Positions 571 to 35,277 of a DNA stretch of 35,277 nt are shown here, in pieces. The stretch is from positions 1-35,277 of IMG/VR virus record IMGVR_UViG_3300027917_000014; one strand, given 5' to 3'. The notes under the pieces are model-generated. The model worked only from the letters and a program-made list of their open reading frames with translations. It searched no databases and was not told the origin of the DNA. This DNA is from a virus. A program made the position numbers and the translations under genes. Each line of letters starts with the position of its first letter. The stretch's first letter is position 1.

Positions 571-581
571 TTAATTACCCC

Positions 582-2821: not shown

Positions 2822-2865
2822 CAAGAATTGAACAAGTTGATGCAGTAAGCGCCTTTGTGTACCAC

Positions 2866-2926
2866 AACTTGTCTAATTTTGGGTGTAAAAAAAAAAAAAT
2901 AATTTACACCCAAAATTAGACAAGTT
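2866..2926. repeat. Perfect 24-bp inverted repeat with A13 loop
   Basis: Bases 2866-2889 and 2903-2926 are exact reverse complements, separated by 13 bases, nearly all A on the plus strand (the 13-base A run is 2887-2899). The RNA of either strand would form a 24-bp perfect hairpin. It sits between the groES terminator and the scaffold promoter. On the minus strand the U-run falls in the loop, not after the stem, so it is not a classical terminator. It may be an RNase III site, an insulator or a DNA cruciform. Confidence 0.75.
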
Positions 2927-2956
2927 AAATGCACTTGCTTCGAAAATATCATGGAC

Positions 2957-2982
2957 AAAAAAAAGCCCTCACTAGGAGGGCT
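2957..2982 (-). terminator. Intrinsic terminator after groES
   Basis: On the minus strand AGCCCTC - loop CTAGT - GAGGGCT (2964-2982) is followed by a run of eight T (2957-2964). It lies 22 bases past the groES stop and would end the transcript of the terminase-portal-groES block before scaffold and coat. Confidence 0.85.
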
Positions 2983-3003
2983 AAGCACAGGACTGAAATA
3001 TAA

Positions 3004-3297
3004 CTACTCTATTATAGCAAGTATGTCTGGCTCTGCAACAAAGTTAATTTCGCCATCTTCATGAGCGATATTGATAGAACCGTGTTTGCGTACAAGCACA
3101 TAATCGCCAACTTCAACGTTCATTGGCATAAGCTTGCCGGTTTTATCAGGACGACCAGGGCCAATGGCAATAACTTCAGCTTTGATTATTGGATTGTCTT
3201 TATAGTTTTCGACTACTTCAATCAAATCGCCGTCTATACGTTCCTCAGGCAATTTTCGCAATGCTACACGGTTCAATATGGGTGCTATTGTAGACAT
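3004..3297 (-). CDS. groES: Phage-encoded co-chaperonin, GroES/Cpn10 family
   Basis: It has 97 residues, the exact length of bacterial GroES. The C-terminal core (VIAIGPGR, MNVEVGDYVLV, EPDILAIIE) lines up with GroES (VLAVGNGR, DVKVGDIVIF, ESDILAIVE), and the N-terminal NRVALRKL with DRVIVKRK. GroES caps GroEL so that substrate folds inside. The mobile loop differs: GroES has GGIVLTGSAAAKSTRG, here it is DGDLIEVVENYKDNPIIK, without the usual GGIVL contact. Host GroEL would be the partner and coat protein the likely client, as with T4 gp31. A GGA lies seven bases before the ATG, and a terminator follows. Confidence 0.92.
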   Translation of the reverse strand: MSTIAPILNRVALRKLPEERIDGDLIEVVENYKDNPIIKAEVIAIGPGRPDKTGKLMPMNVEVGDYVLVRKHGSINIAHEDGEINFVAEPDILAIIE

Positions 3298-3362
3298 TAA
3301 AATATCCTCTCTTTAGTTAGAAGGATATACTATGCTAAAAGAGTGGATATTATGCAAGCGTG

Positions 3363-3673
3363 TCATTTGCGCTTCATTTTCTTGAGCGTTCTAGCTAAAG
3401 CAATACGCCTTTTCATTAATGGTGATGCGCCTTTGCTTAGCTTAGACAAATCAGCCGCACTTAGCTTTTCATCACCTTTGACCAAGCCTTTGCGCTTAGC
3501 AACTGCACGCAATGCGCCCGGCTTTTTTATCGCGCCTTGTATCCAGTTTTCATTGCTTTTTTTTTAGGCGCTGAATTAGATTTGCCAAACTTGCGACCTA
3601 CGCTCGGCATGTTTTGCTTACCGCCCGCTAGCTTCATATGAGTACGGCCAGTTTTACTGTGTTGCATTTTCAT
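3363..3673 (-). CDS. Small basic phage protein, split by a -1 frameshift at an A9 run
   Basis: The ATG at 3673 (AGAGG eight bases upstream, overlapping the portal end) opens a 48-residue frame, MKMQHSKTGRTHMKLAGGKQ..., which stops at 3527. The rest of a familiar phage protein lies in the -1 frame: WIQGAIKKPGALRAVAKRKG..., ending LKKMKRK at 3363. The frames join at nine A on the minus strand (3557-3565), coding KKK. A -1 slip there gives a 103-residue Lys/Arg-rich protein. The phase allows A-AAA-AAA slippage, or one A is missing in this genome or assembly. Proteins with an 'IKKPGALR' motif are common in phages; function unknown, and nucleic acid binding would suit the charge. Confidence 0.72.
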
Positions 3674-7311: not shown

Positions 7312-7654
7312 ATGGATCGCCAGCTTCTCTCAATTTCGTAATTAGTTCTCTATAGCCCCCAGATACGTACTCATCCAAAAACTCAATAGTTTCTTTATGT
7401 TTAGCCTCATCATCATAATCATTTAAAACAAAATCCCGGTCATTTTTTAGAACAATAAATAGGGTTATATGAACTGCTCGCCCCACTTCCTTATACACAA
7501 CGCTGCCATCTGTATTGCACGGCGCATATTTATAATCCCATCTTATATCGCTTCGAATAGATGATATTTCTTGCAAACAAACCATATCATATACACAACC
7601 TTCTTTACCTGCGCTTTTTTTTGTATAAATTTTGATAAACTTATTATCCATCAT
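7301..7654 (-). CDS. Hypothetical protein
   Basis: 117 residues, no family recognised. It is soluble and mixed alpha/beta by eye, with a hydrophobic strand VHITLFIVLKN in the middle. It is reading-frame coupled on both sides: the start overlaps the previous stop by 11 bases, and its end overlaps the TerL start. It is part of the accessory block between the terminase subunits. Confidence 0.72.
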   Translation of the reverse strand: MMDNKFIKIYTKKSAGKEGCVYDMVCLQEISSIRSDIRWDYKYAPCNTDGSVVYKEVGRAVHITLFIVLKNDRDFVLNDYDDEAKHKETIEFLDEYVSGGYRELITKLREAGDPYES

Positions 7655-7976
7655 TGCTCCTTATAACGCTAGTTAATTTTTCCCACACCTTAATAACGTC
7701 TTTAAAGTCAGTGTCGCCCGAGGCTTCCCACTCAATTGCTTTGATCAAGTCGTTATTTTTATGCCACATGTCATGAAAGGGATCTACCTTATTGATCTCT
7801 TCATATAACGCGGTTGTAAACTCGTTGTAAAGATATTGTGCTATTGCGTTCATATTGTGGTCGCTATGTGACTGGCAATACTGAAGCATTCTTACAAATT
7901 CTTTAAACGCGCACGAATAACAGTTATTAGATAACAGTTCACTTGCGAACACATAATCAAACGCACCACCACTCAT
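7644..7976 (-). CDS. Conserved 'MSGGxFDY' family protein
   Basis: 110 residues beginning MSGGAFDYVFAS. Small phage and plasmid proteins that start MSGGxFxY are common and have no assigned role. The rest is helical (ALYEEINKVDPFHDMWHK). It overlaps the methyltransferase stop by four bases (ATGA) and the next gene by 11. Confidence 0.75.
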   Translation of the reverse strand: MSGGAFDYVFASELLSNNCYSCAFKEFVRMLQYCQSHSDHNMNAIAQYLYNEFTTALYEEINKVDPFHDMWHKNNDLIKAIEWEASGDTDFKDVIKVWEKLTSVIRSNDG

Positions 7977-8989
7977 AAACCCTCCTTATACTTTTTTGTA
8001 AATAGAGGCATTAATGCGTTAGCAATTGCGTGTACTCCGTTCGGTGGTACAGCATTGCCAATTTGCCTCCTGACTTCCGATTTAGTACCTAGAAATATAA
8101 AATCATCAGGAAACGACTGTAAACGTGCTCGTTCCCTATTAGTTAGAGGTCGTGGCTCGGGGAAATGATATCCCCATGTTCCACCGCCTCCAGCTGCAAT
8201 AATTGTTTTTGCAGGTTCATCCCTTTTTATTCTTCTATAAACATGGCTGATCATTCCTTTAACGTAAAGTGGGTGATCCTTAGGGATGTTTGTGAAGTTA
8301 CCTCCCTCTGGTATAAGTTTTAACATTTCAATAGTTTTTGGCCGTGTGTTCATGTGCTCATTATTGTGCTTGACTTTTTTCACACCTTTTAGAGCTTGGC
8401 CTGCTGTAATATATGGACTTCCTTTTATACCGTGAGTTGCTTCAGGGTGGATAAAATCAAAGTTTGTATCCTTGCGAATCCCGACTATTAATACACGCTC
8501 ACGGAACTGAGGAACACCATACTGGGCAAAGTTATATAACTGAATTTTTATAATATAGCCTGGTTCTATACTTTCAAAGTCTGAAATAATAGTTTCAATA
8601 GCTTTGTGCTTGTTAGCACTTAATATTCCTTTTACATTTTCTGCGACAAATGCCTTTGGCTTTTTTGCATCTACAAAACGTAAAAAGCTTTTATATAAAT
8701 TTCCTCTCTTTCCATTAAGTCCTGGACGTTTCCAAATCATTGAAAAGTCTTGGCATGGAAAACCTCCAAGGATTAGATCGCATTTAGGAATAGATTTATC
8801 AGTATAAGGGTCAATTTCCTCAATATCTCCAGCATGCATTACATCACCAAAGTTATGGGTAAATGTATCTGCTGCCCATTGGTTAATATCATTTGCCCAA
8901 ACAGTCTCATACCCGCATTGATGGAAACCTAAATCAAGCCCACCACATCCGGAAAAAAGGGATATTATTTTCGGCTTGGTTCTTTTCAT
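7973..8989 (-). CDS. DNA (cytosine-5-)-methyltransferase
   Basis: 338 residues with the full set of C5-methyltransferase motifs. Motif I is FSGCGGLDLGF (12-22), motif IV GGFPCQDFS with catalytic Cys79, motif VI AENV (116-119), motif VIII QYGVPQFRER (156-165) and motif X RRQIGNAVPP near the C-terminus. It transfers methyl from S-adenosylmethionine to C5 of cytosine. The recognition region, between motifs VIII and IX, contains IIAAGGGGTWGYHFPEP; the target site cannot be read from it. No restriction endonuclease gene is adjacent, so it is an orphan enzyme, probably protecting phage DNA from host restriction. It is translationally coupled to its neighbours by ATGA overlaps. Confidence 0.95.
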   Translation of the reverse strand: MKRTKPKIISLFSGCGGLDLGFHQCGYETVWANDINQWAADTFTHNFGDVMHAGDIEEIDPYTDKSIPKCDLILGGFPCQDFSMIWKRPGLNGKRGNLYKSFLRFVDAKKPKAFVAENVKGILSANKHKAIETIISDFESIEPGYIIKIQLYNFAQYGVPQFRERVLIVGIRKDTNFDFIHPEATHGIKGSPYITAGQALKGVKKVKHNNEHMNTRPKTIEMLKLIPEGGNFTNIPKDHPLYVKGMISHVYRRIKRDEPAKTIIAAGGGGTWGYHFPEPRPLTNRERARLQSFPDDFIFLGTKSEVRRQIGNAVPPNGVHAIANALMPLFTKKYKEGL

Positions 8990-9222
8990 TCTTTACCCCA
9001 CTTTTTTGGATGCTCTAGCCAATGCGTTAAAGAGCCTATTGTTTTACGATAGCAAGCTAGCTCTTGCTCATTCTTCATCCTGTAACACGCGCTCCAAACA
9101 TCCTCATTTGTAAAGAACACGCGGATCAACATTTCTTGTTTCGATTGATGAAATGATGTATATCGTATATCGCAATCATCTAATATTAACTTTTTGTCTT
9201 CTTCGTCATACAAATAAATCAC
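8986..9222 (-). CDS. Hypothetical protein (GTG start)
   Basis: 78 residues, MIYLYDEEDKKLILDDCD..., no recognised family. It starts with GTG at 9222, overlapping the TGA of the preceding small ORF (GTGA), and ends in an ATGA overlap with the methyltransferase. The tight coupling suggests expression together with the methyltransferase. Confidence 0.68.
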   Translation of the reverse strand: MIYLYDEEDKKLILDDCDIRYTSFHQSKQEMLIRVFFTNEDVWSACYRMKNEQELACYRKTIGSLTHWLEHPKKWGKE

Positions 9223-9389
9223 GACAAATACCTATGCACTCTCGGATAAGCATATAAACTAATAAAACGTTGTTGTTCACCCGCATGTTTTGGAAAACAT
9301 GAAAGCTGCTTTGACTTTACGCTGTTGGCTGCATTCCATAAGGTGACTATCGTCAGTGTTGATACCTTTATCAGCCGTCCTCTTTTCAT
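9219..9389 (-). CDS. Small hypothetical protein, 56 aa
   Basis: The ATG at 9389 has AGAGGG seven bases upstream. The protein, MKRGRLIKVSTLTIV...RVHRYLS, is basic and ends in a GTGA overlap with the next gene. That coupling and the ribosome site are the evidence for it. Its first 113 bases overlap the 3' part of the ORF at 9277-9510 in another frame; one of the two may be spurious. Confidence 0.5.
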   Translation of the reverse strand: MKRGRLIKVSTLTIVTLWNAANSVKSKQLSCFPKHAGEQQRFISLYAYPRVHRYLS

Positions 9390-9510
9390 CGTTTACCCTC
9401 TGTTTAGGTTGTACCAGAAAATTAAGCATATAGCGATGTCCGTACTTAGTGCTTAGTTGCTTAACTTCTTGCTCGGTGAATGGTCGTTGTTTGCTTTTGT
9501 TGTAGTACAT
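9277..9510 (-). CDS. Hypothetical protein, 77 aa
   Basis: MYYNKSKQRPFTEQEVKQLS... has a plausible N-terminal half. An AAGGA lies ten bases before the ATG. The second half overlaps the better-supported 56-aa ORF (9219-9389), so the annotated C-terminus may not be functional. No function can be assigned. Confidence 0.42.
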   Translation of the reverse strand: MYYNKSKQRPFTEQEVKQLSTKYGHRYMLNFLVQPKQRVNDEKRTADKGINTDDSHLMECSQQRKVKAAFMFSKTCG

Positions 9511-9647
9511 TGCTTGTCTTTCCTTATTTGTTGTTTAGTGATTGTTACTTTACTGCTTTGCTTTTCATCATCATCAAAAATATAACCTAGCCTTTGCTTT
9601 TGTTCATCGGTTAAGTTTTGACATAGCTCCAGGTGAAATAATCGCAT
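9453..9647 (-). CDS. Small hypothetical protein, 64 aa
   Basis: MRLFHLELCQNLTDEQKQRL... starts at 9647 with GGGG six bases upstream; the frame is open to an ATG at 9668. The short N-terminal part 'L-x-L-C-x-N-L-T-D-E-Q' looks like a genuine protein, and the C-terminus is lysine-rich. It overlaps the next ORF by 58 bases. No family recognised. Confidence 0.5.
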   Translation of the reverse strand: MRLFHLELCQNLTDEQKQRLGYIFDDDEKQSSKVTITKQQIRKDKQCTTTKANNDHSPSKKLSN

Positions 9648-9669
9648 AAAAAACCCCGTTTCTCTCATG

Positions 9670-10050
9670 TTATAGCCCGAATAATCGCATCAACCTTGTA
9701 GAAAAATCATCGATTGTCTCTTTAGGCTTTTCTTGCTCTTTCTTTTCTTCTTCCTTGGCTTCAACTTTCTCGCTTGCTGCCTTGTTCTTCTCACGCAATA
9801 GCTCTATAGCCTCGCGTTTTCTTACTTCTTCCTCGGCTTTTTTGTACATGCTGTAATAAGGTGTAAACATTGGATCCTCCCTTTTATAGTCAATTATAAA
9901 CTCTTCCATTAACTCGTCAATGTCCGAGTAATCATGGATAACCGCGGGTTGTTTCTTACCACTACTTAGCTTAACGTAGTTAAACGCCCACAGCATGCCG
10001 TAAGTATCAAAGTAATGGTCAAATTGTTTTTTTGTGATTTTTTTTCGCAT
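9670..10050 (-). CDS. Hypothetical protein with charged coiled-coil C-terminus
   Basis: 126 residues. The N-terminal half is mixed (KQFDHYFDTYGMLWAFNYVK). From about residue 65 on it is a Glu/Lys-rich coil (KAEEEVRKREAIELLREKNK). The start lies inside the end of the HTH ORF upstream (32-base overlap). No function recognised. Confidence 0.65.
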   Translation of the reverse strand: MRKKITKKQFDHYFDTYGMLWAFNYVKLSSGKKQPAVIHDYSDIDELMEEFIIDYKREDPMFTPYYSMYKKAEEEVRKREAIELLREKNKAASEKVEAKEEEKKEQEKPKETIDDFSTRLMRLFGL

Positions 10051-10249
10051 CCTTAATAGTTCTCCTTATTGTTTCACTTGACAACATAAGCATGTCACCA
10101 ATCTGATAAATGTTATAACCTGATTCACTGTATGCCACTATCTCACTTAACAGCTTGCTTGAATGTGTTGTATCGTTGTTGTGCTTATAAAAAAAGTGTG
10201 TAAAAAGAAAACTTTTTAACAAGCCGCTCTTTGCCCACTTGTCCATCAT
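10019..10249 (-). CDS. Small helix-turn-helix protein
   Basis: 76 residues. The C-terminal half, IVAYSESGYNIYQIGDMLML followed by SSETIRRTIKDAKKN, reads as an HTH: helix, turn at SGYN, recognition helix near SSETIRRTI. It lies just after the small terminase candidate, so it could be a regulator or a second DNA-recognition component of packaging. There is no direct evidence for either role. Confidence 0.6.
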   Translation of the reverse strand: MMDKWAKSGLLKSFLFTHFFYKHNNDTTHSSKLLSEIVAYSESGYNIYQIGDMLMLSSETIRRTIKDAKKNHKKTI

Positions 10250-10255
10250 TGGCTA

Positions 10256-10759
10256 TCAATACTCTCTCTCATATTCAACCATCAACGCGTTAACCTCTGG
10301 ATTGCCCTCGTCATTAGAAACGTTAACAGTACGCATAGTTGCTGCATCACCAGCTACATAATTAGTAGTAATCATTTGTTCAGGCGCATTATGGCCTTGC
10401 ATGCTATTGAGGAGCTCGATCGCTTTAAGCATGTGCGTGGGCGTGTAGCGTAACTCTTTAGCTTTTCCTGGGTCTGTTGTCACTGTCTCAATCATTTTGT
10501 AAAGCTTCGCGACCTTATAGTTATAATTACACAAACGCGTATAGTACGTGTTCTGCAGGTCTGTTTTTTGCAATGCAGCAACTGCCACTTGGAAAGACTT
10601 CTTGTTTAGTATCTCGCGCGCTTCTTTCTCGCTCTTGATATCAGCGGCGGCTATTGCGTATTCTAAATCGTTGCCACTTTGCGCCAAGCCAATTGCAAAG
10701 AGCTGCTCTTTTTCGTTCAGTTCTTCTTGTGCTTGTATCAACTCGTTTGAGCCATTCAT
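10256..10759 (-). CDS. Terminase small subunit (candidate)
   Basis: 167 residues from the ATG at 10759 (GTG codons extend the frame to 10771). The N-terminal stretch LNEKEQLFAIGLAQSGNDLE followed by IKSEKEAREILNKKSFQVAV has the 'LTxKEx-F-x-A...' pattern and helical repeat of phage small terminases. These recognise the pac or cos site and recruit TerL. P22 gp3 has 162 residues. Its position upstream of TerL in the same transcript fits, although nine or so small genes intervene. Confidence is moderate because the family is very divergent. Confidence 0.62.
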   Translation of the reverse strand: MNGSNELIQAQEELNEKEQLFAIGLAQSGNDLEYAIAAADIKSEKEAREILNKKSFQVAVAALQKTDLQNTYYTRLCNYNYKVAKLYKMIETVTTDPGKAKELRYTPTHMLKAIELLNSMQGHNAPEQMITTNYVAGDAATMRTVNVSNDEGNPEVNALMVEYEREY

Positions 10760-10859: not shown

Positions 10860-11128
10860 TTGGTTTTATCAGCCCAATATGCCGCGCTCATTTTACCCTT
10901 GGCTATGTTCTTAGCGTGCCTTGCTTTGAATGATGCCCGCTTTTGTTTCATAGCTTTGCTTTCGCCTGCTTTTGGCTTGCCTGCCGTCTTAGCACCTTGC
11001 TCACCAAAACGAATCATCTTTACCTTGTCACCATCTTTTGCAAGTACCACGTGTGACTTGCTTGCGTGCCCAGGCGTGCGCTTAGGCTTGTTATATCCTG
11101 AAAATGTTTCGCCTCTATATTAAATCAT
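10853..11128 (-). pseudogene. Conserved small phage protein with TAA at codon 3
   Basis: The C-terminal part (IRFGEQGAKTAG..., SFKARHAKNIAKGKMSAAYW) belongs to a conserved small phage protein family of unknown function. Its usual N-terminus is present too: FSGYNKPKRTPGHASKSHVV lies upstream in the same frame. The only ATG in that frame (11128) has AAGAAGGA eight bases upstream but is followed by ATT then TAA (11120-11122). Either a nonsense mutation, read-through, a rare non-ATG start after the TAA, or a GTG at 11050 (65-aa product lacking the conserved N-terminus) is used. Function unknown. Confidence 0.7.
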
Positions 11129-11321
11129 TAGCTCTATCCTTCTTAGGCCGCCCGCGTTTCTTCTTAACAACCACCTGAGTTGTAACAACCCTTTCCATGT
11201 CGTCATTTGTCTGTCGCTTCAATTTAAGCACCTCTCCAGTACCATGACACTCAGGGCAAGTCTTTCTCTGCCATCCCAAAGCCATATAATAGCGCTTGCC
11301 GTTACATTTCTCGCATTTCAT
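11115..11321 (-). CDS. Zinc-ribbon / AT-hook small protein
   Basis: 68 residues. N-terminal MKCEKCNGKRYY and TCPECHGTGEV form two CxxC pairs of the DnaJ zinc-finger type (CxxCxGxG). The C-terminus KKKRGRPKKDR is an AT-hook-like motif, which binds the minor groove of AT-rich DNA. This suggests a small nucleic-acid-binding protein, perhaps a regulator of the leftward transcript. It overlaps the preceding gene by four bases (ATGA). Confidence 0.68.
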   Translation of the reverse strand: MKCEKCNGKRYYMALGWQRKTCPECHGTGEVLKLKRQTNDDMERVVTTQVVVKKKRGRPKKDRANDLI

Positions 11322-11914
11322 CTATAATACCTTTTAACAAATCGCATAAATTCATCACTTAATAGCTTTTTGCTGTTTTCAAGTCGCTTGTACTTAAACT
11401 CTAAATCTTCACACTTTTTATAAATCCCAACAATTTCTTTGATGCTAGGCGCATTATGTACCGCCTCATCTATAAAAGTCATTGATTCCTTGCACTCTTT
11501 CAACATAGTGTCCATCTTTTCTATAGCTTGTAAGGCTAGATCAATATCTTGCTTTTTCTTGTTATAAATCCTTGTGAATTGCGCCTGAAGTTTTGGCGTT
11601 AAATGTTTGCTTCCCCCGTGTTCGCTAACTACACTAAATATAAATTTCTTTTCCCATTTTCCTACCCTGATATTCGGCAACTTTTCGTAATCTAAGTTTG
11701 TGTATTCATCTGTCGAATCACTGTATTTTTTTCCTTCATCATAATCATCATAAAACCAGTCTTCATCAACGTACGCGAGATGGTGATATTGATGATCATT
11801 AATAAACTTAATCAGTATCTGAGCCTCCATAATTGAACTACAAGAAAACCAGCCGCGCTTATTCCATAGTTTTTGCTTGCAATCATGACAGATTAAGTAA
11901 TAATCATAGCTCAT
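11318..11914 (-). CDS. Hypothetical protein, first gene of the leftward block
   Basis: 198 residues. The N-terminus has a possible metal site (ICHDCKQK, then NDHQYHH). The second half is helical and charged (IDLALQAIEKMDTMLKECKE, YKRLENSKKLLSDEF). No family recognised. It stands directly behind the promoter at 11942-11970 with a leader of about 20 bases and an AGAGG. Confidence 0.7.
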   Translation of the reverse strand: MSYDYYLICHDCKQKLWNKRGWFSCSSIMEAQILIKFINDHQYHHLAYVDEDWFYDDYDEGKKYSDSTDEYTNLDYEKLPNIRVGKWEKKFIFSVVSEHGGSKHLTPKLQAQFTRIYNKKKQDIDLALQAIEKMDTMLKECKESMTFIDEAVHNAPSIKEIVGIYKKCEDLEFKYKRLENSKKLLSDEFMRFVKRYYR

Positions 11915-13553: not shown

Positions 13554-13874
13554 CTATATCCCCTTATTCAATTTGCCCCCATGCGCCTGGATAGTGGCGC
13601 GGTATTTCTCATACGGTGATAGTGTTTCATATTCAGAGTTAATATTAGCCATAAATTGTTCATTTTTCAAGTAAGCCTCGCGCAACATCTCATAACGCCA
13701 GTCTTTTTTATTTTCTGGTAAGTGTTCCATGCAGTAGTAATGTGGCCTTACTGGTGGCCGTGGGATAAAGAATTTGTACGGCCTGTTACATTTTTCACAC
13801 TTAGAGCCTGGTATTGGCTGGCTATAATCGATTTGATTGTCTTTTTTTTGTTCTGTTTCTTTATTGAACTTCAT
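13554..13874 (-). CDS. Putative zinc-binding protein of the replication operon
   Basis: 106 residues. CEKCNRPYK (CxxC) and HYYCMEHL suggest one zinc site around residues 26-52. The rest is helical and charged. It follows the initiator gene with a four-base overlap, the position of the helicase loader P in lambda, but it is much too small to be P and shows no AAA motif. Confidence 0.62.
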   Translation of the reverse strand: MKFNKETEQKKDNQIDYSQPIPGSKCEKCNRPYKFFIPRPPVRPHYYCMEHLPENKKDWRYEMLREAYLKNEQFMANINSEYETLSPYEKYRATIQAHGGKLNKGI

Positions 13875-14797
13875 TGCTTGCTCTTTTCTTGCAAATAATA
13901 CCTACCGAAAACGCTGTACACTTTTTTTTCATCTTGGTAGGTTCCAAGATTGTTTGTGTTCAATTCTTTCCTGGCCAAATTATAGGCATTTCTAGCGGCT
14001 TCGCTAGTTTGTCTTTTTGCGAATATATTTTGCAAAGCTTGGCGCGCCTCTTTCGAAATATCGGAATCGGGATTATTGGGCGAGTTCTGCATATTCACGA
14101 ATTTAGTTATATTATCATTGTTGCGCAGAATATAACCAATGCCATAATTGCCACTGTTGCGGTACCATTCATTTTCAAGACAGCCGTTAATTGCCTTTTT
14201 GAGCTTTTGTTCTGAGTTGTACAAAAGCGCATTCTCAATAGTTTTAATTCTTTCAGGATCCAGCGCCTCACCCTGAACGTCCCTCATTCCTTTGGCCTGT
14301 GCAGATTCTTTCCAATGATCAAAAATTGACAAAACAAAAGGCGACACGGTTTCTTTTATATTTTCTTTTATATTATATAAAAGTGTACCCCTCACATCTG
14401 TGTTAGGGGTACCCCCTACATTGGTGTTAGGGGTACCCCCTACATCTGTGTTAGGGGTCTCACCTCTACCCCTCACATCTGTGTTAGGGGTTTTGTCGAT
14501 ATTATCTCTGTTCAAAAAATAGTACTTGCTTGGCTTTCCTATATCCCTAACGTTATAAATAAGCTTTTTTTCCACCAGTTCTTCGATGGCATAGGTAACC
14601 TGGCGATGGGTTAACCCAGTCTCTATCATGATAGTTTTAATTCTTGGATGAGAATACCCGACACTTTTATCAAGCATATTAAGAAGTACTGAATAGATTA
14701 TTTTAGCATTTGATGATAAGCCAGGCTCACGACATAGCCACTTTAACAGTTTGTGGTAATGTTGCGCTGACTCTTTTGGTGCAAGTTTTTTAACCAT
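13871..14797 (-). CDS. Replication initiator, winged-helix O-like protein
   Basis: 308 residues in three parts. Residues 1-95 hold a winged helix (LSSNAKIIYSVLLNMLDKSV, then TGLTHRQVTYAIEELVEKKL). Residues 103-137 are a linker of four TPNTDVxG repeats. Residues 150-308 are helical (IFDHWKESAQAKGM..., NYGIGYILRNNDNITKF), typical of phage replication proteins. The linker repeats are the protein reading of DNA iterons (14388-14490), so the origin lies inside the gene as in lambda O. With no phage helicase seen, it probably recruits host DnaB. Confidence 0.85.
   Translation of the reverse strand: MVKKLAPKESAQHYHKLLKWLCREPGLSSNAKIIYSVLLNMLDKSVGYSHPRIKTIMIETGLTHRQVTYAIEELVEKKLIYNVRDIGKPSKYYFLNRDNIDKTPNTDVRGRGETPNTDVGGTPNTNVGGTPNTDVRGTLLYNIKENIKETVSPFVLSIFDHWKESAQAKGMRDVQGEALDPERIKTIENALLYNSEQKLKKAINGCLENEWYRNSGNYGIGYILRNNDNITKFVNMQNSPNNPDSDISKEARQALQNIFAKRQTSEAARNAYNLARKELNTNNLGTYQDEKKVYSVFGRYYLQEKSKQ
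14351..14490. other. Predicted replication origin: four iterons plus AT-rich tract
   Basis: Four 22-bp repeats start at 14388, 14412, 14436 and 14469. Each begins CCCCT or CCCCC and ends TGTTAGGGG, and each has near-perfect dyad symmetry (CCCCT...CACA-GA-TGTG-AGGGG read on the minus strand). Spacing is 24, 24 and 33 bp. Directly beside them, 14351-14384 is almost pure A+T (TTCTTTTATATTTTC, TATTATATAA), a likely unwinding element. This is the layout of lambda ori: iterons inside the initiator gene followed by an AT-rich region. Confidence 0.78.
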
Positions 14798-14837: not shown

Positions 14838-15008
14838 CTAGCTAATGTTTTTTTCCAGTAGTTTCAGTCTCTCTAATTCTTTAACAGGTACAATTGCAAC
14901 CAGTGGTTTATTCCTTCTTGTGATGATGACAGGCTCAATGCCATAGGCTGCCCTATTTACTAGATCGCTAAAATTATTTCTAAATTCAACGGTACTTACT
15001 TTCTTCAT
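14838..15008 (-). CDS. Phd/YefM-family antitoxin, without a toxin gene
   Basis: 56 residues: MKKVSTVEFRNNFSDLVNRA then IEPVIITRRNKPLVAIVPVK. The pattern 'S-xxE-x-R-x-x-x-x-x-L-x-x-x...PV-I-T-R-x-x-K-P-x-x-x-l-V-P' is that of Phd/YefM antitoxins, which bind DNA at the N-terminus and neutralise a toxin at the C-terminus. GAGGAG stands eight bases before the ATG. The gene downstream is the replication initiator, and no Doc, YoeB or RelE-type toxin was seen in the genome. It may act as the operon's autorepressor or counter host toxins. Confidence 0.85.
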   Translation of the reverse strand: MKKVSTVEFRNNFSDLVNRAAYGIEPVIITRRNKPLVAIVPVKELERLKLLEKNIS

Positions 15009-15156
15009 ATTTAAAACTCCTCAAATGTACAAAATGTCAATATTACATTATTTCAAGGATATATCATACCAAATGATCGTATTAGTCAGCATGTATAGCA
15101 ACATTCAGCAATTACCCCTAGAGCTTGTGAGATATGGCTTACACGCTTTATAAGTC

Positions 15157-15195
15157 ACAATATGTGTTGACACTATTGATGACCTTTGTTAAATT
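15157..15195 (+). promoter_or_regulatory. Rightward promoter of the Cro-like gene with operator motif
   Basis: TTGACA (15167-15172), 17 bases, TAAATT (15190-15195). The -35 is perfect, the -10 weak. The operator-like motif ACAATATGTGTT (15157-15168) runs into the -35. The region 15009-15156 must also hold the leftward promoter of the antitoxin-initiator operon, but no clear pair of boxes was found there. Confidence 0.48.
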
Positions 15196-15215
15196 GCGCA
15201 AAAAAGGGGGAAGCA

Positions 15216-15458
15216 ATGATAAAAGAAGAAAAAGCACAAGCGCTAATTCGTGACGTAATACAATTTTTCGGGTCGCGCAAAGAATTTGCCCACGCGCTAG
15301 ATTGCACACCACAGAATTCTAATATGTGGCACCAAGGCTATAGGAAAGTGCCAGTTATCAAGGCGCTAGAAATAGAGAATTTAACCAAGGGCAAGTTTAA
15401 AGCGTGTGATTTACGCCCAGATGTAAAAATATTAAAAAAAGTTGTAATTAACTATTGA
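15216..15458 (+). CDS. Cro/YdaS-like HTH regulator
   Basis: 80 residues from the ATG at 15216 (GGGGGAAGCA upstream; the frame is open ten codons further). The HTH reads FFGSRKEFAHALDCTPQNSN with MWHQGYRKVP, then ALEIENLTKGKFKACDLRPD, the characteristic end of YdaS/Cro-like proteins. It probably controls the early promoters and is the best candidate binder of the ACAAYNYGTGTT motif. There is no partner cI gene on the other strand. Confidence 0.82.
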   Translation: MIKEEKAQALIRDVIQFFGSRKEFAHALDCTPQNSNMWHQGYRKVPVIKALEIENLTKGKFKACDLRPDVKILKKVVINY

Positions 15459-18843: not shown

Positions 18844-19178
18844 ACGAAATAGAGATTAACGGTATTATTTACGTTGAAAAAAACAAGCAAGAAAAATCTA
18901 AGTATTGCACGATTAGGACTTACTCAGCGGGCGTGTGGGTAGGTATTGTGGACAAGATGGAGGGTAAATACGCAGAAATAAGCGATGCGCGTAGGTTGTG
19001 GTATTGGTCAGGCGCTGCCAGCTTATCAGAACTTGCAGTAAATGGCGTAAAAAATCCAGACGATTGTAAGTTCCCTACAGCTGTTGATCAAGTTATATTA
19101 ACAGAGGTGATAGAAGTTATTCCTATGACTGAAAAAGCTATAGAAAGTATTAAAGGCGTCAAGGTATGGGAAGCATAA
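18840..19178 (+). CDS. Conserved phage protein, DUF6948-like
   Basis: 112 residues. The sequence YCTIRTYSAGVWVGIVD, RRLWYWSGAASLSELAV, CKFPTAVDQVILTEVIEVIP and ESIKGVKVW matches a conserved phage family that I recall as DUF6948. Function unknown. Such genes are often followed by a gene of Gly-rich repeats, as here. Confidence 0.85.
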   Translation: MNEIEINGIIYVEKNKQEKSKYCTIRTYSAGVWVGIVDKMEGKYAEISDARRLWYWSGAASLSELAVNGVKNPDDCKFPTAVDQVILTEVIEVIPMTEKAIESIKGVKVWEA

Positions 19179-19585
19179 ATATTGATACTGTAACATACAA
19201 ATATGGAGCCGGATACGGAGGCGGAGCCGGATACGGAGACGGAGCCGGAGACGGAGCCGGAGACGGATACGGAGACGGAGAAGGTGGCGGAAGCGCAGAC
19301 GGATACGGAGACGGATACGGAAACGGAGCCGGAGACGGATACGGAGAAGGTGGCGGAGCCGGATACGGAGACGGAGCCGGAGACGGATACGGACACGGAG
19401 CCGGATACGGAGACGGACACGGAGCCGGAGACGGATACGGACACGGAGCCGGATACGGAGACGGACACGGATACGGAGACGGAGCCGGAGACGGATACGG
19501 AGACGGAGAAGGTGGCGGAAGCGCAGACGGATACGGAGACGGATACGGAAACGGAGACGGAGACGGGGACGGATATGACGATTAA
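19166..19585 (+). CDS. Glycine-rich repeat protein (GxGx, 139 aa)
   Basis: After MGSINIDTVTYKYG the whole protein alternates Gly with Asp, Tyr, Ala, His or Glu (for example GDGYGDGEGGGSADGYGDGY). The DNA consists of 6-bp units (ggagac, ggatac, ggagcc, ggacac). It overlaps the DUF6948-like gene by 13 bases. The protein should be extended and unstructured, perhaps metal-binding through Asp and His. Gly-Asp-Tyr repeat proteins in this position are known in other phages; no role is established. Confidence 0.7.
   Translation: MGSINIDTVTYKYGAGYGGGAGYGDGAGDGAGDGYGDGEGGGSADGYGDGYGNGAGDGYGEGGGAGYGDGAGDGYGHGAGYGDGHGAGDGYGHGAGYGDGHGYGDGAGDGYGDGEGGGSADGYGDGYGNGDGDGDGYDD
19246..19556 (+). repeat. Hexanucleotide repeat tract with an 83-bp exact duplication
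   Basis: The Gly-rich gene is built of degenerate 6-bp units. Bases 19246-19328 recur exactly at 19474-19556, an offset of 228 bp (38 units). This shows recent duplication inside the tract, by slippage or unequal recombination, which would change protein length without changing frame. Confidence 0.9.
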
Positions 19586-19754
19586 CAACGGAGACGGATA
19601 CGAAGACGGTAGCGGAAACGGATACGGAGACGGAAACGGACACGGATGCGGAACCGGAGACGGATACGGACGCGGAGACGGACGCGGTAACGGAGACGGA
19701 TACGGAGACGGAAACGGATACAAAGACGGAACCGGAACCGGATATTACGAATAA
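19575..19754 (+). CDS. Second glycine-rich repeat protein, 59 aa
   Basis: The ATG at 19575 lies inside the end of the first Gly-rich gene, in another frame. MTINNGDGYEDGSGNGYGDG... repeats the same theme and has one Cys. Either this is a separate gene coupled by overlap, or the two were one gene interrupted by a frameshift at TATGACGATTAA. The shared start pattern argues for two genes. Confidence 0.58.
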   Translation: MTINNGDGYEDGSGNGYGDGNGHGCGTGDGYGRGDGRGNGDGYGDGNGYKDGTGTGYYE

Positions 19755-19778
19755 CAATTATTTAAACGGGGAAAAAAC

Positions 19779-20219
19779 ATGCAATTTGGATTTACTGAAG
19801 ATGACTTCAAAGACGATGGAGAATTTACGCAGACGCTCAAAGATGGCAGAGCATCCGGTAAGGCCATGAACTTTGAAGAAGGTGTCGACAAGCAGGGCAA
19901 TCCTAGAATAACTTTTGATATTGAAACGTTACAAAATGGCAAGCATGGGAAGGCCAAAGAGTTTGTATCACAAAAACAAAAGTTCAAATTAATTAACTTG
20001 GCTAAGGCTTCAAATTCGCAAGAACTCAGAAACGCGATTATTAATGATGAACATATCACGGCAAATCTAATTAATGGGCTAACATTTGAATTTGAGGTTC
20101 AAATCAATGGAAGCTATGCCAATGTTGGCCGGTACATTCGACATGGCGCTGAGCCCGCTCAATCTGAAAATGAGCCTTTAAAAGATGAGACTCCATTTAA
20201 TGATGATATCCCATTCTAG
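19779..20219 (+). CDS. SSB-like protein with acidic C-terminal tip
   Basis: 146 residues. The last residues FNDDIPF match the SSB tip (DDDIPF) by which SSB binds host replication proteins. The body (ITFDIETLQNGKHGKAKEFV, FEFEVQINGSYANVGRYIRH) is beta-rich, like phage DUF669-type ssDNA-binding proteins. It probably protects ssDNA during replication and works with the RecT-like protein. Confidence 0.72.
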   Translation: MQFGFTEDDFKDDGEFTQTLKDGRASGKAMNFEEGVDKQGNPRITFDIETLQNGKHGKAKEFVSQKQKFKLINLAKASNSQELRNAIINDEHITANLINGLTFEFEVQINGSYANVGRYIRHGAEPAQSENEPLKDETPFNDDIPF

Positions 20220-20484: not shown

Positions 20485-20682
20485 ATGTTAATCGTTTCAA
20501 GACATCCAGTTATTAGAAGGGATGGTACTAGGGTTAGTGATGAAACTTTGAGTAAGTTTACAATTATGGTCGATGACATTAAAATCGAAGTGTCATTAAT
20601 TGAAAATAGGGGCAATCAATCTAAGATAGGCATTAAAGCGCCGCGAAAGGTCCAAGTATTAAGAAATGAGCTACTTCTTTAA
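20485..20682 (+). CDS. csrA: CsrA/RsmA-family RNA-binding regulator
   Basis: 65 residues (E. coli CsrA has 61). The second half IKIEVSLIENRGNQSKIGIK then APRKVQVLRNEL aligns with CsrA VTVTVLGVKGNQVRIGVN, APKEVSVHREEI. MLIVSR matches MLILTR. Arg6 and the Arg of VxR (E. coli Arg44), both RNA contacts, are kept. About a dozen residues are inserted after the first strand (HPVIRRDGTRVSDETLSK). CsrA dimers bind GGA in mRNA leaders and change translation or stability. AGGAG precedes the ATG, itself a possible target. Its end overlaps the convergent holin-like gene by 12 bases. Confidence 0.88.
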   Translation: MLIVSRHPVIRRDGTRVSDETLSKFTIMVDDIKIEVSLIENRGNQSKIGIKAPRKVQVLRNELLL

Positions 20683-21063
20683 CGCTTCTTTAATGCTACC
20701 TATTGCGGAACCAATAACATTAGGTATTGAGCGCATGCCAAAGACTGCTAAGCACATGCCAGAGAGTACATTAGATTGCCAATCTTTGAGCATGTGCCAG
20801 GCTTCTTGTACTTTGTGCCCCCATTCCGGGGATATTAAAGACGCAAGCAAAGGGGAAGCGAACAAAATAAACGCAGCCCACCTTAACAATTTATCTTTGT
20901 CATTTAATTGAGCAATCTCCCATTTGCTATTAGATTCTTGCTGACTAAGCAATAAGCGCTTTTCAAGTTCTAACGCTGCCATTGATCTTTCGTGCTTGGC
21001 TTTGGACTTTTCTCCAAGCCATCCGAATACCGTTTTAACACCATCAACGATTAGGCTTATCAT
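20671..21063 (-). CDS. Holin-like protein, 3TM holin family
   Basis: 130 residues from the ATG at 21063 (AAGGTTAAAG upstream). It has a charged helical region (20-58), a membrane segment LLRWAAFILFASPLLASLIS (59-78) and a second one (NVLSGMCLAVFGM, about 98-110). The sequence resembles holins of the 3TM, gene-transfer-agent type. It would open the inner membrane for the endolysin. Last gene of the leftward late transcript. Confidence 0.75.
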   Translation of the reverse strand: MISLIVDGVKTVFGWLGEKSKAKHERSMAALELEKRLLLSQQESNSKWEIAQLNDKDKLLRWAAFILFASPLLASLISPEWGHKVQEAWHMLKDWQSNVLSGMCLAVFGMRSIPNVIGSAIGSIKEALKK

Positions 21064-21361
21064 CTTTAACCTTATATTGTGTGTTATATTTAGGACTAGG
21101 GGCCAGATATAACGCCCTAGCAGCCTCATATAGGCCGAAAATGATCATGCCTATACTAAACAGTACCCGCCAATTTTTGAGGCTAAAATCAAAGAATTTA
21201 GCGTTCCTGCTTCTTTTGTAATCTTCCAGATGATGACGCGCTTTAATTTCTCCAACATTGTCACCTAGATCATTGGCCAATAATTGCAATTCTTGAACCT
21301 CGCGCTCAACAATTGTAAGCCGCTTGTCGATTTCGTGCATTTGTTGTTCAATCTTGACCAT
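21044..21361 (-). CDS. Coiled-coil membrane protein of the lysis cassette
   Basis: 105 residues. Residues 1-50 form a coiled coil (MHEIDKRLTIVEREVQELQL) and about 71-88 a membrane segment (VLFSIGMIIFGLYEAARALY). AGGTG lies five bases before the ATG. Between endolysin-like and holin-like genes, it may regulate the holin or act as a spanin-like part; the topology does not settle it. Its end overlaps the holin start. Confidence 0.66.
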   Translation of the reverse strand: MVKIEQQMHEIDKRLTIVEREVQELQLLANDLGDNVGEIKARHHLEDYKRSRNAKFFDFSLKNWRVLFSIGMIIFGLYEAARALYLAPSPKYNTQYKVKDDKPNR

Positions 21362-21369: not shown

Positions 21370-21861
21370 CTATGTTTCACGTGAAACATATTGCTTATAA
21401 TTGTGTATAAATTCCTCAACGGTGCCTTTGCCTTTTGGCGTGTTATAGTATCGTTTCCAATATTCAGCTAGCCCTTGTATATCGTCTGATTGCGGCAATA
21501 TCTCAGGAACTCTAAAATAGTGAACGCGCGCCATTGCTGTAGCATAAGCCAAATCATACATAAGCCTAGAAGCCTCTGACCTTTCTTGAGAACGACAGCT
21601 TTTACATACGATTGTCAGCATTTTTAATAGTTCTGACTTTCTAATTAGGTAGTTATCCCATAAATCATAGTAAGTCCCTGGCTCCATTTGATATATGCCT
21701 AATGCTGGACCAGAACCTAACTGCCTTATATACGTGCCTAGCGCCGATTCTTGAGCTGCTGTACCTAAAATCAAATTTTCAGCTGATAATGACCAGAGAT
21801 TCAATTTTTTTAGAACGGGCCTAACAATATCTTGTCGCAACTGGTCAATATCGATAGCCAT
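21370..21861 (-). CDS. Lysozyme/transglycosylase-like endolysin
   Basis: 163 residues from the ATG at 21861 (AAGGTGG upstream). The segment NLILGTAAQESALGTYIRQL with GPALGIYQMEPGTYYDLWDN is the lysozyme-like fold; Glu38 in AAQESALG is the likely catalytic acid, as in lytic transglycosylases. There is no signal peptide, so a holin is required, and a holin-like gene follows two genes later. Its last codons (VSRET-stop) are made of the parS palindrome at 21373-21388. Confidence 0.75.
   Translation of the reverse strand: MAIDIDQLRQDIVRPVLKKLNLWSLSAENLILGTAAQESALGTYIRQLGSGPALGIYQMEPGTYYDLWDNYLIRKSELLKMLTIVCKSCRSQERSEASRLMYDLAYATAMARVHYFRVPEILPQSDDIQGLAEYWKRYYNTPKGKGTVEEFIHNYKQYVSRET
21371..21390. 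promoter_or_regulatory. parS: parS site (ParB/Spo0J binding sequence)
   Basis: TATGTTTCACGTGAAACATA is a perfect 20-bp palindrome. Its central 16 bp, TGTTTCACGTGAAACA (21373-21388), equal the chromosomal parS consensus bound by ParB in most bacterial phyla. Expected by chance about once in 10^5 genomes of this length. No second copy and no parA or parB gene were found, so host ParB would be the ligand. It lies at the 3' end of the endolysin-like gene. Confidence 0.9.
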
Positions 21862-24664: not shown

Positions 24665-25492
24665 TTATAAAGCTACGTCATAAACAAGCGTAAATGACTT
24701 AAAACCGGTTGTGCCTGACCCTATAAATGGTTCATTATCAACCGTTGATGCTACTAATAAACTGCCTGTAGATGTTAATAACACTTCACCAACCATATTA
24801 GCGCCGTTATCGAAAACTTTAATCACGCCGGTTTTATCAGATATTGGCCTAAATGCCGCATCAATTTGCGTATCCAGTCCGATGGTATTACTTGTAGTTG
24901 CCGCGCCTGTTACCTCAGAAAATGATATAGCGACTTGTGTATCACTAATAAAACCGATTCTATAACTTACATTAACAGGTGAAGCATAAGGCCCCGACAT
25001 GGTTGTATTCACTAGAGTGGTAGCTTCATTACCAAGACTCACCCATAGTGTGCCTGAGTAATAATCATAAGTATTCGTATCTGTGTTAAATACCTGCAAA
25101 CCTGTAGCTGGTGATGGTAACGCATCTCTTTGAGCTTGCGTCATGCGTGGCGCTGGTATACTACCTCTTGTTGTGCTGAAAATAGCAAGGGCTGCAACCG
25201 TGCCAGCTGGTGCACCAATACCCAATGTCTTTTTAGTATTATCCCAATAAAACTCAGGATCTGAGGTAATACTCCCATCCGTGTCGCCGAATAGCACTTC
25301 ATTAGTTGCAAAGCTGCTGGATTCACCTATTAATATGGTACGCACGGTTCCAGTATCATCTTTATACTTAATTTTGATATCTTTCGATGTAGTATCTAAA
25401 TGAATATTGGCCTCACTGTTTGCTAAATCTGCATCAGCTACAGTACCTTGAATACCTATATGATGCTTAGTTTGATTTATTTTATAGGTCAT
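24665..25492 (-). CDS. Tail fibre protein, mosaic of two neighbours
   Basis: 275 residues. The N-terminus (NSEANIHLDTTSKDIKIKYK, VLFGDTDGSITSD) is paralogous to the 23303 fibre. The middle (PAPRMTQAQRDALPSPATGL) and C-terminus (SGPYASPVNVSYRIGF, VIKVFDNGANMVGEV) are paralogous to the gene at 25508. It therefore joins modules of both, as expected from recombination among receptor-binding genes. Confidence 0.75.
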   Translation of the reverse strand: MTYKINQTKHHIGIQGTVADADLANSEANIHLDTTSKDIKIKYKDDTGTVRTILIGESSSFATNEVLFGDTDGSITSDPEFYWDNTKKTLGIGAPAGTVAALAIFSTTRGSIPAPRMTQAQRDALPSPATGLQVFNTDTNTYDYYSGTLWVSLGNEATTLVNTTMSGPYASPVNVSYRIGFISDTQVAISFSEVTGAATTSNTIGLDTQIDAAFRPISDKTGVIKVFDNGANMVGEVLLTSTGSLLVASTVDNEPFIGSGTTGFKSFTLVYDVAL

Positions 25493-32540: not shown

Positions 32541-32550
32541 CTACTACCCC

Positions 32551-33231
32551 TTAAATACCTGGAATAAAACCAGCCAACGAACCTAAGCCACCAAACAAGC
32601 TGCTCATTCCTGATTGGCTTTGCTGGGCTTGTGCTGCTGCCATTTCAGCCTGTGCTTGCTGTGCTTGTGCTAACGCTTGCGCTAGATTAGTAGCACCCGT
32701 AAAACCTTGCTGTTCCAAACCACTAAGGCCGCCAAGACCTTGACCATAAAGCCCTAACATTTGATTCATGTAGTTTTGATATTGTTGATTAGCAAGGCCG
32801 CTTGCTACTTGCTCTGCTTGCTGTTGAGCGGCTGGCGTCCCAGCCATCCCACCAGCTGCGGCTGCGCTTCCCGCTGCCTGCAAAGCCTGCTGTTTTTGGA
32901 ATTCATAGCCCGGATCAGCCTGAAAACCTTGACCCAATTGAGCATACAACTGACCTGGATCTTGCATCATGCCACCGTAGGCTTGTTGCAATTGAGGAAT
33001 TAACTGCTGCCCCATTTGCGCATAAGGTCCAAGATACTGCTTTAACATATCCGGAATGCCGCTTGTGTATTGCTGATAAGCTGCTTGCGGACTTTGTCCT
33101 CCAAACATTCCGCCAAGAAGTCCGCCAAGCGCGCCCCCCAAACCACCAACCATAGGATTGAACTTATTTTCTGAACTCATGGCCTGCTGAGTTGCACCAA
33201 TATTTTGCGCTTCTTGATATGGATCTCTCAT
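32551..33231 (-). CDS. DNA ejection protein, P22 gp7/gp14 position, Gly/Gln-rich
   Basis: 226 residues. An N-terminal glycine-rich segment (GGLGGALGGLLGGMFGGQSP) is followed by a long Gln/Ala/Tyr helical region, ending FGGLGSLAGFIPGI. Both ends look membrane-active. Coupled by ATGA to the preceding gene. Confidence 0.65.
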   Translation of the reverse strand: MRDPYQEAQNIGATQQAMSSENKFNPMVGGLGGALGGLLGGMFGGQSPQAAYQQYTSGIPDMLKQYLGPYAQMGQQLIPQLQQAYGGMMQDPGQLYAQLGQGFQADPGYEFQKQQALQAAGSAAAAGGMAGTPAAQQQAEQVASGLANQQYQNYMNQMLGLYGQGLGGLSGLEQQGFTGATNLAQALAQAQQAQAEMAAAQAQQSQSGMSSLFGGLGSLAGFIPGI

Positions 33232-33620
33232 GTTACTGTCACCGTTTTAATTTCATCGTTAAAACCAATTTTCAACTCATCCGTATCAGTATCGTGAATG
33301 AATCGACCATTCCTTTGACCGCTTGGAATTGCATTTATCTCATCGGTCGTCAATTGCTCTAATGTAGTCATGTTTTTATTCACACCCGCTACATTTACTA
33401 TGGGGGCATCTGCTTCACTGTCATAAAGCATCGCGCCCGTAGAATTTGAATTATTCAGCGTTGCTAAATTCTCCTGATTCTGTTGGGGCAATTTAAAGCC
33501 CTCTTGCGATATATTTCGTTGCAAGTAATTAGCTTGCGTCTCAAAATATATCCGCCATTTATCAGCTAATTGCCCATTTTTGGCATAAAACCCATCCTTC
33601 GGCAAACTTGGGATACTCAT
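33228..33620 (-). CDS. Short virion protein in the tail-needle position
   Basis: 130 residues between the gp10-like and ejection genes, where P22 has its needle gp26 (233 residues). The N-terminus (LADKWRIYFETQANYLQRNI) is a helical segment typical of small tail proteins. The C-terminal half (LYDSEADAPIVNVAG, RFIHDTDTDELKIGFN) is beta-rich and lacks the long coiled coil of a needle. It may be a shortened plug or a different protein. Confidence 0.55.
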   Translation of the reverse strand: MSIPSLPKDGFYAKNGQLADKWRIYFETQANYLQRNISQEGFKLPQQNQENLATLNNSNSTGAMLYDSEADAPIVNVAGVNKNMTTLEQLTTDEINAIPSGQRNGRFIHDTDTDELKIGFNDEIKTVTVT

Positions 33621-35062
33621 ACAAAATAACTCAACGTCGCGCCAATAATGACGAATCTAAATTTGCCCCAAAATCTAAACTGAAACACCGTATCATTCGA
33701 AGCGCCAAGCTTTTGGAACCTCATCTTACTAATTCTATTAGGAAGCGCTCTGACTTCTTTGCCGAAAATATTGCCGAATGACGCACCACCATTTTTAGAC
33801 ATTGATAAATCAACGCGCCTAACTTCACTACTGTTGCCCTGCTCCATAGTAATGTTGACTTCATTAATCGCATAAGTCTCTGCATTAGGAAGCCTAAAGT
33901 TTCTAGTAATTCGCTGTCTTGGTATTTCGTAAATCCTATCTTTGCCTCTTATTGACTCGTCATACGTCTCTAAATCTGCACTCATTTCATATAAATTGCC
34001 GTCAATGTTGCTAACGAAATAATGCGTGTTGTTAAAATAAACAACGCGCTTGGCTATGTGCTTGTCGCCACAACTATTTGTCGCGTTGAAAAACTTTTGC
34101 GTGTTAAAATCATACAGATACGTTACGTTATCTGAATTGAATGTAATCTGATAAATAACATGGCCGTCTTGCTCAAAAATAAAGGCTGTTGCATCTTCAG
34201 GCTTAGATAACGTGCCTAGCTGAAAGTTAATACCATCCGTTGATATCTGTTGCGGCGCGCCTCCATTTGACACCATAATGGTAGGACTTGCCGACTCATT
34301 GCCAGCAAGCCAAACCAATCGCCCGAAGCCCATCGCTATTGTCTGAGCATTCAAGCACCCATAATCGATACTGATTGAATTATCACGCTGATAGGGGAAT
34401 ATCTGTGCCCCAACATCATGCCATATCTCAGTTGTTGTTTTGCCGAAAACAAATAATTGCCTTTCAAAAGCAACGGCCGCAACACTAATGTCGGGCTTTG
34501 TCTCAATTGCCCCCGATCTAAGCGGATTTATAAATCTTATATCACCGTCGTCGGTAAAATTAGATAAAAACCATTGATTTGAGTTGCCATCTGCAACAAT
34601 GAAATAAGTGTCTTGAAAGTCTATATATATAGGCTTAAATGGCACTACTTGCGGGTCTGTCTGACTTTCGTCAAATGCCTTAAAGGTAGAATTCTTATAA
34701 TCATAAATGTAAACAGTTACACCATCGACAATGGCAATTTGATTATTATTGTTCTCTGTAATGTAAACTGGCCCCGTCGAGGTTTTTAAAAATCCTATAC
34801 GCTGTTTGCCAAGCCCCTGACCAATAATAAAAACACTATCATCAATCACGGCAATCAAATGCCTAAAAGCAATACTACGGTATAATTCCCGTGCATCTTC
34901 AGCACCAGGGAGAATCTCAAGCGCTGGTTTATAACCGGCATAGGGAACTAATGCCCCATCGGATATGATCATGTTATAAGTAGCCTCAATAGACTGCTTT
35001 TTATAACGATCAAAACTTGTCCCGCCAACTATGTCTAGTTGTTCAGTTCTCAAGGTCGCCAT
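33617..35062 (-). CDS. Packaged DNA stabilisation protein, P22 gp10-like
   Basis: 481 residues (P22 gp10: 472). It has a beta-propeller-like pattern of repeated strands (VYIYDYKNSTFKAFDESQ, YLYDFNTQKFFNATNSC). It follows the gp4-like gene with a 13-base overlap, as in P22 where gp10 caps the portal-gp4 tube. VGGTSFDRYKKQSIEATYNM at the N-terminus resembles the start of the family. Confidence 0.82.
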   Translation of the reverse strand: MATLRTEQLDIVGGTSFDRYKKQSIEATYNMIISDGALVPYAGYKPALEILPGAEDARELYRSIAFRHLIAVIDDSVFIIGQGLGKQRIGFLKTSTGPVYITENNNNQIAIVDGVTVYIYDYKNSTFKAFDESQTDPQVVPFKPIYIDFQDTYFIVADGNSNQWFLSNFTDDGDIRFINPLRSGAIETKPDISVAAVAFERQLFVFGKTTTEIWHDVGAQIFPYQRDNSISIDYGCLNAQTIAMGFGRLVWLAGNESASPTIMVSNGGAPQQISTDGINFQLGTLSKPEDATAFIFEQDGHVIYQITFNSDNVTYLYDFNTQKFFNATNSCGDKHIAKRVVYFNNTHYFVSNIDGNLYEMSADLETYDESIRGKDRIYEIPRQRITRNFRLPNAETYAINEVNITMEQGNSSEVRRVDLSMSKNGGASFGNIFGKEVRALPNRISKMRFQKLGASNDTVFQFRFWGKFRFVIIGATLSYFV

Positions 35063-35277
35063 CCTCTACCGATATTAACATCAGCCCAGTTATAACCTGT
35101 TACCTTGTTGGTTAAGGTAGACATCTTTTTAATTGATAGATCTTGCGGACTCACTTCATTGAGCTGGTCTTCAATTTCTAACAGTGTTTGCATTTTTTGC
35201 TGACTAAACGTAATGTCATAAAAATCACAAAGGCGTTTAGCTAGCTTATAAGTGAGATAACTCACGAAATAATTATC
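35050..35277 (-). CDS. P22 gp4-like head-tail adaptor, C-terminal part (gene spans the join)
   Basis: This is the 3' end of the gene that starts at 570. Bases 35179-35277 repeat the window start, so the non-redundant part is 35050-35178 (42 codons and stop). The reading frame continues exactly over the join (TTA at 1-3, then GAA at 35176-35178). It ends NKVTGYNWADVNIGRGWRP and overlaps the gp10-like gene by 13 bases. Confidence 0.8.
   Translation of the reverse strand, partial: DNYFVSYLTYKLAKRLCDFYDITFSQQKMQTLLEIEDQLNEVSPQDLSIKKMSTLTNKVTGYNWADVNIGRGWRP
35179..35277. repeat. Terminal direct repeat, right copy
   Basis: Identical to bases 1-99. It should be removed to obtain the 35,178-bp circle. 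Confidence 0.93.

Follow-up and report, generated by a model that had tools for sequence, protein, structure and literature searches.

The ParB-parS system is the best-studied bacterial centromere, and, judged by analogy with the systems described here, a mobile element that borrows the ParB of another replicon through a parS site is of a kind already known. The DNA of phage phi29 is trapped in spores by the ParB of its host, Spo0J (Meijer et al., 2005, cited by PMC9437464). The phi29 genome holds four copies of TGTTTCACGTGGAACA, with one mismatch each, against an expectation of 0.19 when up to three mismatches are allowed. The endolysin gene contains one of these four, as do the exact parS of the phi29 relative B103 and a parS site of Goe1. 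A second example is the integrative element SGI1, whose parS-like sites hijack the parABS system of IncC plasmids. Here, the parS mimics bind the ParB of the other replicon and the element gains stability (PMC10954446).

The DNA analysed here (the window) comprises 35,277 nucleotides, positions 1 to 35,277 of the virus record IMGVR_UViG_3300027917_000014. Like phi29, it joins a parS of the host-chromosome type to a phage without parA or parB, and it has that site among its late genes, the endolysin gene included. For phi29, it has been published that a host ParB takes charge of the phage DNA. Unlike phi29, with its four one-mismatch sites and its sporulating host, the window phage is P22-like, with one exact site and an O-type origin. 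The spore route of phi29 cannot be assumed for it, and a spore stage is probably absent.

Like SGI1, for which binding of ParB has been demonstrated, the window phage is a mobile element with a parS and no partition genes; unlike SGI1, which is integrative and has a plasmid ParABS as its partner, it is a phage whose parS is of the chromosome type. With phage-plasmids such as P1 and the extrachromosomal mycobacteriophages it would share a ParB/parS pair on phage DNA. These, however, encode ParA and ParB and have their own centromere (PMC7157519), whereas the window phage encodes neither protein. The window phage differs from these precedents in the type of phage, the single exact site and the likely lack of a spore stage.

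A canonical parS site at the end of an endolysin-like gene

The features around the site are as follows.

20671 to 21129, minus strand: gene that closes the late operon, 152 aa, phrog_2524 (E=1.4e-6), function unassigned, holin-like by position only
21044 to 21361, minus strand: following gene in the lysis cassette, 105 aa, without a match to any family
21370 to 21861, minus strand: endolysin-like gene, phrog_3108 (E=1.4e-43)
21371 to 21390: 20-bp perfect palindrome TATGTTTCACGTGAAACATA, enclosing the parS core
21373 to 21388: parS core TGTTTCACGTGAAACA, exact match to the chromosomal ParB site

An earlier note, made by reading the sequence, had described a perfect chromosomal parS in a phage that has no parA or parB, and the description holds. 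The 16-mer matches the canonical ParB-site consensus with 0 mismatches and is the only parS match in the window when up to 3 mismatches are allowed. The palindrome around it is the longest perfect one in the window, the runner-up having 14 bp, and the A/T flanks of the core are the commonest parS flanks in other viral contigs as well. Profile searches in six frames of the window detected neither ParB (ParB_N, PF02195) nor ParA (ParA-type AAA_31, PF13614). The chance expectation of about 10^-5 given in that note is also borne out, as Markov models of the window expect 1.35e-5 (first order) or 1.41e-5 (second order) exact 16-mers in 35,277 bases. The site is real, and its origin is almost certainly not chance. 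An assembly chimera was considered and ruled out, as the site lies inside a phage gene and the record closes as a circle. A search at the site for a terminator-like hairpin or an Rfam element found neither.

Read on the minus strand, the endolysin-like gene ends TAT GTT TCA CGT GAA ACA TAG, that is, Y-V-S-R-E-T-stop, and the C-terminus of its protein reads NYKQYVSRET-stop. The third base of the Tyr codon falls in the parS core, and so do the last five codons, Val-Ser-Arg-Glu-Thr, which the note had already named. The ribosome-binding site of the gene at 21044 to 21361 (ATAGGTGACGATATG) begins directly after the palindrome. The site is placed as near to an intergenic position as this compact operon permits. 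A 57-bp similarity of this region to another locus was set aside, as it comes from parS and a like ribosome-binding site behind it, and not from a homologous gene.

What does the site cost the protein? The predicted structure has a mean pLDDT of 90, falling to 55 in the last residues. Lytic transglycosylases and lysozymes head the list of similar folds; none reaches E<=0.001, and because this weak resemblance is consistent, the predicted fold makes "endolysin-like" a fair name. In an alignment of 13 relatives, the family stops within a few residues of the parS position and has no shared tail. Since parS lies in a variable tail where the confidence of the model is low, it would cost the endolysin-like protein little.

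Genome organization and lifestyle

The phage record is complete, and a 99-bp direct terminal repeat closes the window to a circle of 35,178 bp. Its structural genes form a P22-like set: portal (phrog_156), large terminase (phrog_38), major head protein (phrog_283), scaffold and Hc3 head closure. Further genes encode a RecT-like annealing protein, a Gp157-like protein and a C5 cytosine methyltransferase. Between the portal and scaffold genes lies a phage co-chaperonin of the GroES type (3004-3297, minus strand; Cpn10, PF00166 E=4e-12), and between the scaffold and co-chaperonin genes an inverted repeat of 24 perfectly paired bp around a 13-nt loop makes a strong hairpin (2866-2926). Elsewhere, repeats of 12 and 18 bases form an extended array (19129-19790) inside an ORF (19203-19754) for a low-complexity, repetitive protein.

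The replication and control region contains the following.

13871 to 14797, minus strand: O-like replication initiator, HTH_36, phrog_270 and phrog_18020, with iterons inside it
14385 to 14498: four iteron-like repeats, spaced 24, 24 and 33 bp, a direct repeat family inside the replication gene
14838 to 15008, minus strand: Phd/YefM-type antitoxin (PF02604 E=7.5e-15, TIGR01552)
15186 to 15458, plus strand: Cro/YdaS-like regulator (PF15943 E=3.4e-11, PF14549), divergent from the antitoxin

A lone Phd/YefM antitoxin and a divergent Cro/YdaS-like regulator occupy 14838-15458, the place at which one would look for the repressor in a phage of the lambda type.

From parS together with the iterons, the antitoxin and the lack of an integrase, the note had argued for a plasmid-like stage. 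The last of these was confirmed, in that a six-frame search of the window detected no tyrosine integrase (PF00589). The iterons and the antitoxin carry less weight than the note gave them. The iterons are present, but inside the O-like gene, in the arrangement of a lambda-type origin. The Phd antitoxin is present too, but no toxin partner was detected in the window. Among PLSDB plasmids, the replication protein had no match and a portal query returned only 4 weak matches of the P22 type. Of the marks of a phage-plasmid, the window shows no parA, parB or other partition gene of its own and no plasmid-type replication gene, and no plasmid relatives were found. In addition, virulent phages of the phi29-like group and the Herelleviridae, which have no episomal stage, carry parS as well. 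A plasmid-like stage is therefore possible for the window phage, but it is not indicated and is weakly supported.

Relatives and host

The nearest relatives of the window phage, with 100% and 87% portal identity, both stop short of the lysis genes. The 100% identical contig spans only positions 1-10583 and 32546-35277 of the window. The 87% relative, which ends just before the lysis genes, is a 20-kb phage contig in a Thermoplasmata bin with no exact parS. That bin, "Thermoplasmata archaeon bin33" (CP070751.1), was deposited as a chromosome and consists of contigs joined by 100 N; the contig of the sister phage lies at about 1124935-1145119 and is likely contamination. Since only runs of N connect this contig to its neighbours, it is uninformative as to an archaeal host.

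Further out, a parS with up to 2 mismatches was found in 0 of 29 IMG/VR relatives, all of them distant (28-54% identity in the endolysin or 43-48% in the portal). Vibrio phage PhiPS02, a relative in its lysis gene, also has no parS-like site within 2 mismatches. A search of relatives was the check that the note had proposed; in relatives so distant, its negative outcome says nothing either way and does not refute the note's reading. The PhiPS02 record (PV649651.1) annotates a ParA-like protein at 11059-11688, with no ParB_N domain and no canonical parS. The neighbouring gene at 24665-25492 of the window gave weak partial matches only, none of them a close genome that covers parS. The endolysin family, one module of the genome, points by sequence to phages of marine gammaproteobacteria (Vibrio, Pseudoalteromonas, Alteromonas).

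parS sites in other viral genomes

At least 119 IMG/VR stretches contain the exact 16-mer, and 16 contain the 20-mer palindrome. Two control words were searched for in the same collection. The reversed letters, ACAAAGTGCACTTTGT, occur in 1 stretch; TTGTTCACGTGAACAA, which has the same composition and keeps the CACGTG core, occurs in 5. Because the controls give 1 and 5 against at least 119, chance accounts for at most a few percent of the exact parS matches in viral contigs.

The 162 parS sites in 134 IMG/VR loci (126 non-redundant site contexts; 18 loci with two or more sites) include 63 that are intergenic, against 12.7 expected from random positions, an excess that is approximate because genes were called by a simple longest-ORF rule. 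Thus, as a class, parS sites in phages lie far above chance and are concentrated in non-coding DNA. ParB_N was not found in 94 of 100 parS-bearing records (44 of 50 and 50 of 50), which is suggestive but not proof, as many IMG/VR records are fragments and some may be plasmids.

In GenBank, 211 phage records match the palindrome as a blastn probe, a search that needs about 17 matching letters and so also catches some sites with one or two mismatches; 30 records go under the name Listeria phage LM and, as contigs without annotation, might be of bacterial origin. The reversed core has 0 matches in GenBank phages, the five listed falling on the junction of core and flank. Like the window phage, GenBank members of the Microviridae, Inoviridae, phi29-like phages, Herelleviridae and actinobacterial phages carry the same 16-mer, mostly without ParB_N. 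These are unrelated genomes, which differ in the number and the position of their sites. Among 16 of the phages checked, ParB_N was not found in 15, Paschalis being the exception.

Exact sites were seen in the phi29-like phages Bacillus Goe1, Enterococcus Athos, Glutamicibacter Voltaire and Hungatella CH17P1. Voltaire (NC_073479.1, 8742-8776) has two of them 19 bp apart, intergenic and beside an amidase gene. Three exact sites each occur in Lactobacillus Bromius (Herelleviridae), Roseobacter DSS3P8 and Butyrivibrio Bo-Finn, and two in Gordonia Orchid; Arthrobacter Nancia has one- and two-mismatch sites only. Among single-stranded DNA phages, exact sites occur in M17988.1 (692-712), PQ006134.1, MK765589.1 and others, with no ParB gene in those checked. 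The Microviridae are represented by Spiroplasma phage 4, where the site lies in a gap between genes directly before a ribosome-binding site, and by a tortoise microvirus; one inovirus has five exact sites in 5.8 kb. Among the papers searched, none dealt with parS in Microviridae, though this does not prove the finding new.

Most of the listed parS-bearing phages infect hosts that have a chromosomal ParB. Escherichia, like every name outside the listed top ten, accounts for at most 6 matching records, and the GenBank phage collection searched is rich in Escherichia and Klebsiella phages. Enterobacteria, E. coli included, are not known to have a chromosomal ParB.

Proposed recruitment of the host ParB

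A canonical parS in a phage that has no parA or parB makes recruitment of the host ParB the natural reading. The note had proposed as much, and by analogy the proposal gains from the precedent of phi29 with Spo0J and from the many phages that carry parS and no ParB. Thus, by these analogies, the most likely mechanism is the loading of host ParB onto phage DNA. More specifically, we put the probability at roughly 0.55 that the palindrome is functional, loading the host ParB and so tethering the phage genome to the segregation machinery of the host.

Here, ParB-CTP clamps of the host would load at 21373-21388 on entry of the phage DNA and during its replication, and would then slide along the circular phage DNA. 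This would couple the phage genome to the ParA/SMC segregation apparatus of the host, near the host origin or the cell pole. The phage DNA would be held and positioned and, where lysis does not follow immediately, would be inherited by the daughters with no parAB from the phage. We infer three things: a matching host ParB, its binding to the site, and positioning or inheritance as the benefit.

Against this stands the single copy of parS in the window, where several phages have 2-5. Further, no relative found has parS, so that this lineage gives no direct sign of conservation, the relatives being distant ones. Virulent phages, of course, cannot gain vegetative inheritance; therefore, the site of the window phage may likewise serve another purpose than positioning or inheritance.

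Competing explanations

The same binding of ParB could bring a different benefit. Replicating copies of parS might act as a decoy, titrating the host ParB together with the SMC that it loads and disturbing segregation or division of the host. Such sabotage would suit virulent phages and the high-copy microviruses and inoviruses, which carry parS where inheritance is no issue, and some phages, such as the inovirus with five sites, have many sites, as a decoy would. With one site per genome, however, titration by the window phage would be weak, and we consider this use rather unlikely. A switch of gene expression appears doubtful. Here, ParB spreading from the end of the late operon would damp transcription of, or read-through into, the lysis genes until replication dilutes it, which would, were it so, tie the time of lysis to genome copy number. 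The position of parS at the junction of the endolysin-like and next genes, directly before a ribosome-binding site, speaks for such a switch, as do the endolysin-gene sites of phi29, B103 and Goe1 and the repression by ParB of parS-adjacent promoters in Pseudomonas aeruginosa, reported in PMC5521831. Yet the location of parS varies widely between phages, in many different places, and the number of promoter-like sites around parS in the window equals, and does not exceed, that in shuffles.

Other explanations do without a ParB that acts today. Were the site a relic, a plasmid-like ancestor would have had parABS and lost parAB, leaving a site that is now neutral or nearly so. The ParA-like gene annotated in PhiPS02 and the lone Phd antitoxin would accord with such a past; PhiPS02, however, lacks a parS-like site of the chromosomal type, no plasmid relatives were found, and a neutral, exact 20-bp palindrome in a coding end would decay fast, which makes a relic very unlikely. 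Palindromes are common operators, and the window does encode a Cro-like regulator, so the site might belong to another DNA-binding protein and be identical to parS by coincidence. An operator of this kind is highly improbable, given a single copy, control regions that have no second one nearby even with up to 3 mismatches, and an extended match to parS that is exact to the flanking A/T. As for pure chance, one window was picked from many and its relatives are without the site. Set against the 1-5 matches of the control palindromes and the at least 119 of parS in IMG/VR, which leave chance at most a few percent, and still less where the 20-bp palindrome is concerned, this too has a very small probability.

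Implications

By loading the host ParB, a phage that plugs into the ParB-parS system with 16 bases would obtain the positioning of its genome for free. Because a few synonymous changes remove parS and leave the phage proteins unchanged, or nearly so, and because several laboratory hosts are available as parB deletions, its role is directly testable. The survey suggests that many unrelated phages do likewise, strictly lytic and single-stranded ones included.

A broader reading is tentative: recruitment of the host ParB through an exact parS might be a general, convergent strategy of phages, one that serves infection itself rather than the inheritance of an episome. The strategy so conceived could possibly extend over single-stranded DNA microviruses, inoviruses, phi29-like phages, Herelleviridae and P22-like phages. 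Its uses, on a guess no firmer, might lie in placing, shielding or counting phage genomes, or in blocking host segregation or a DNA-sensing defence. Whatever the use, host-type parS in unrelated phages that have no ParB is a more interesting result than the single site in the window.
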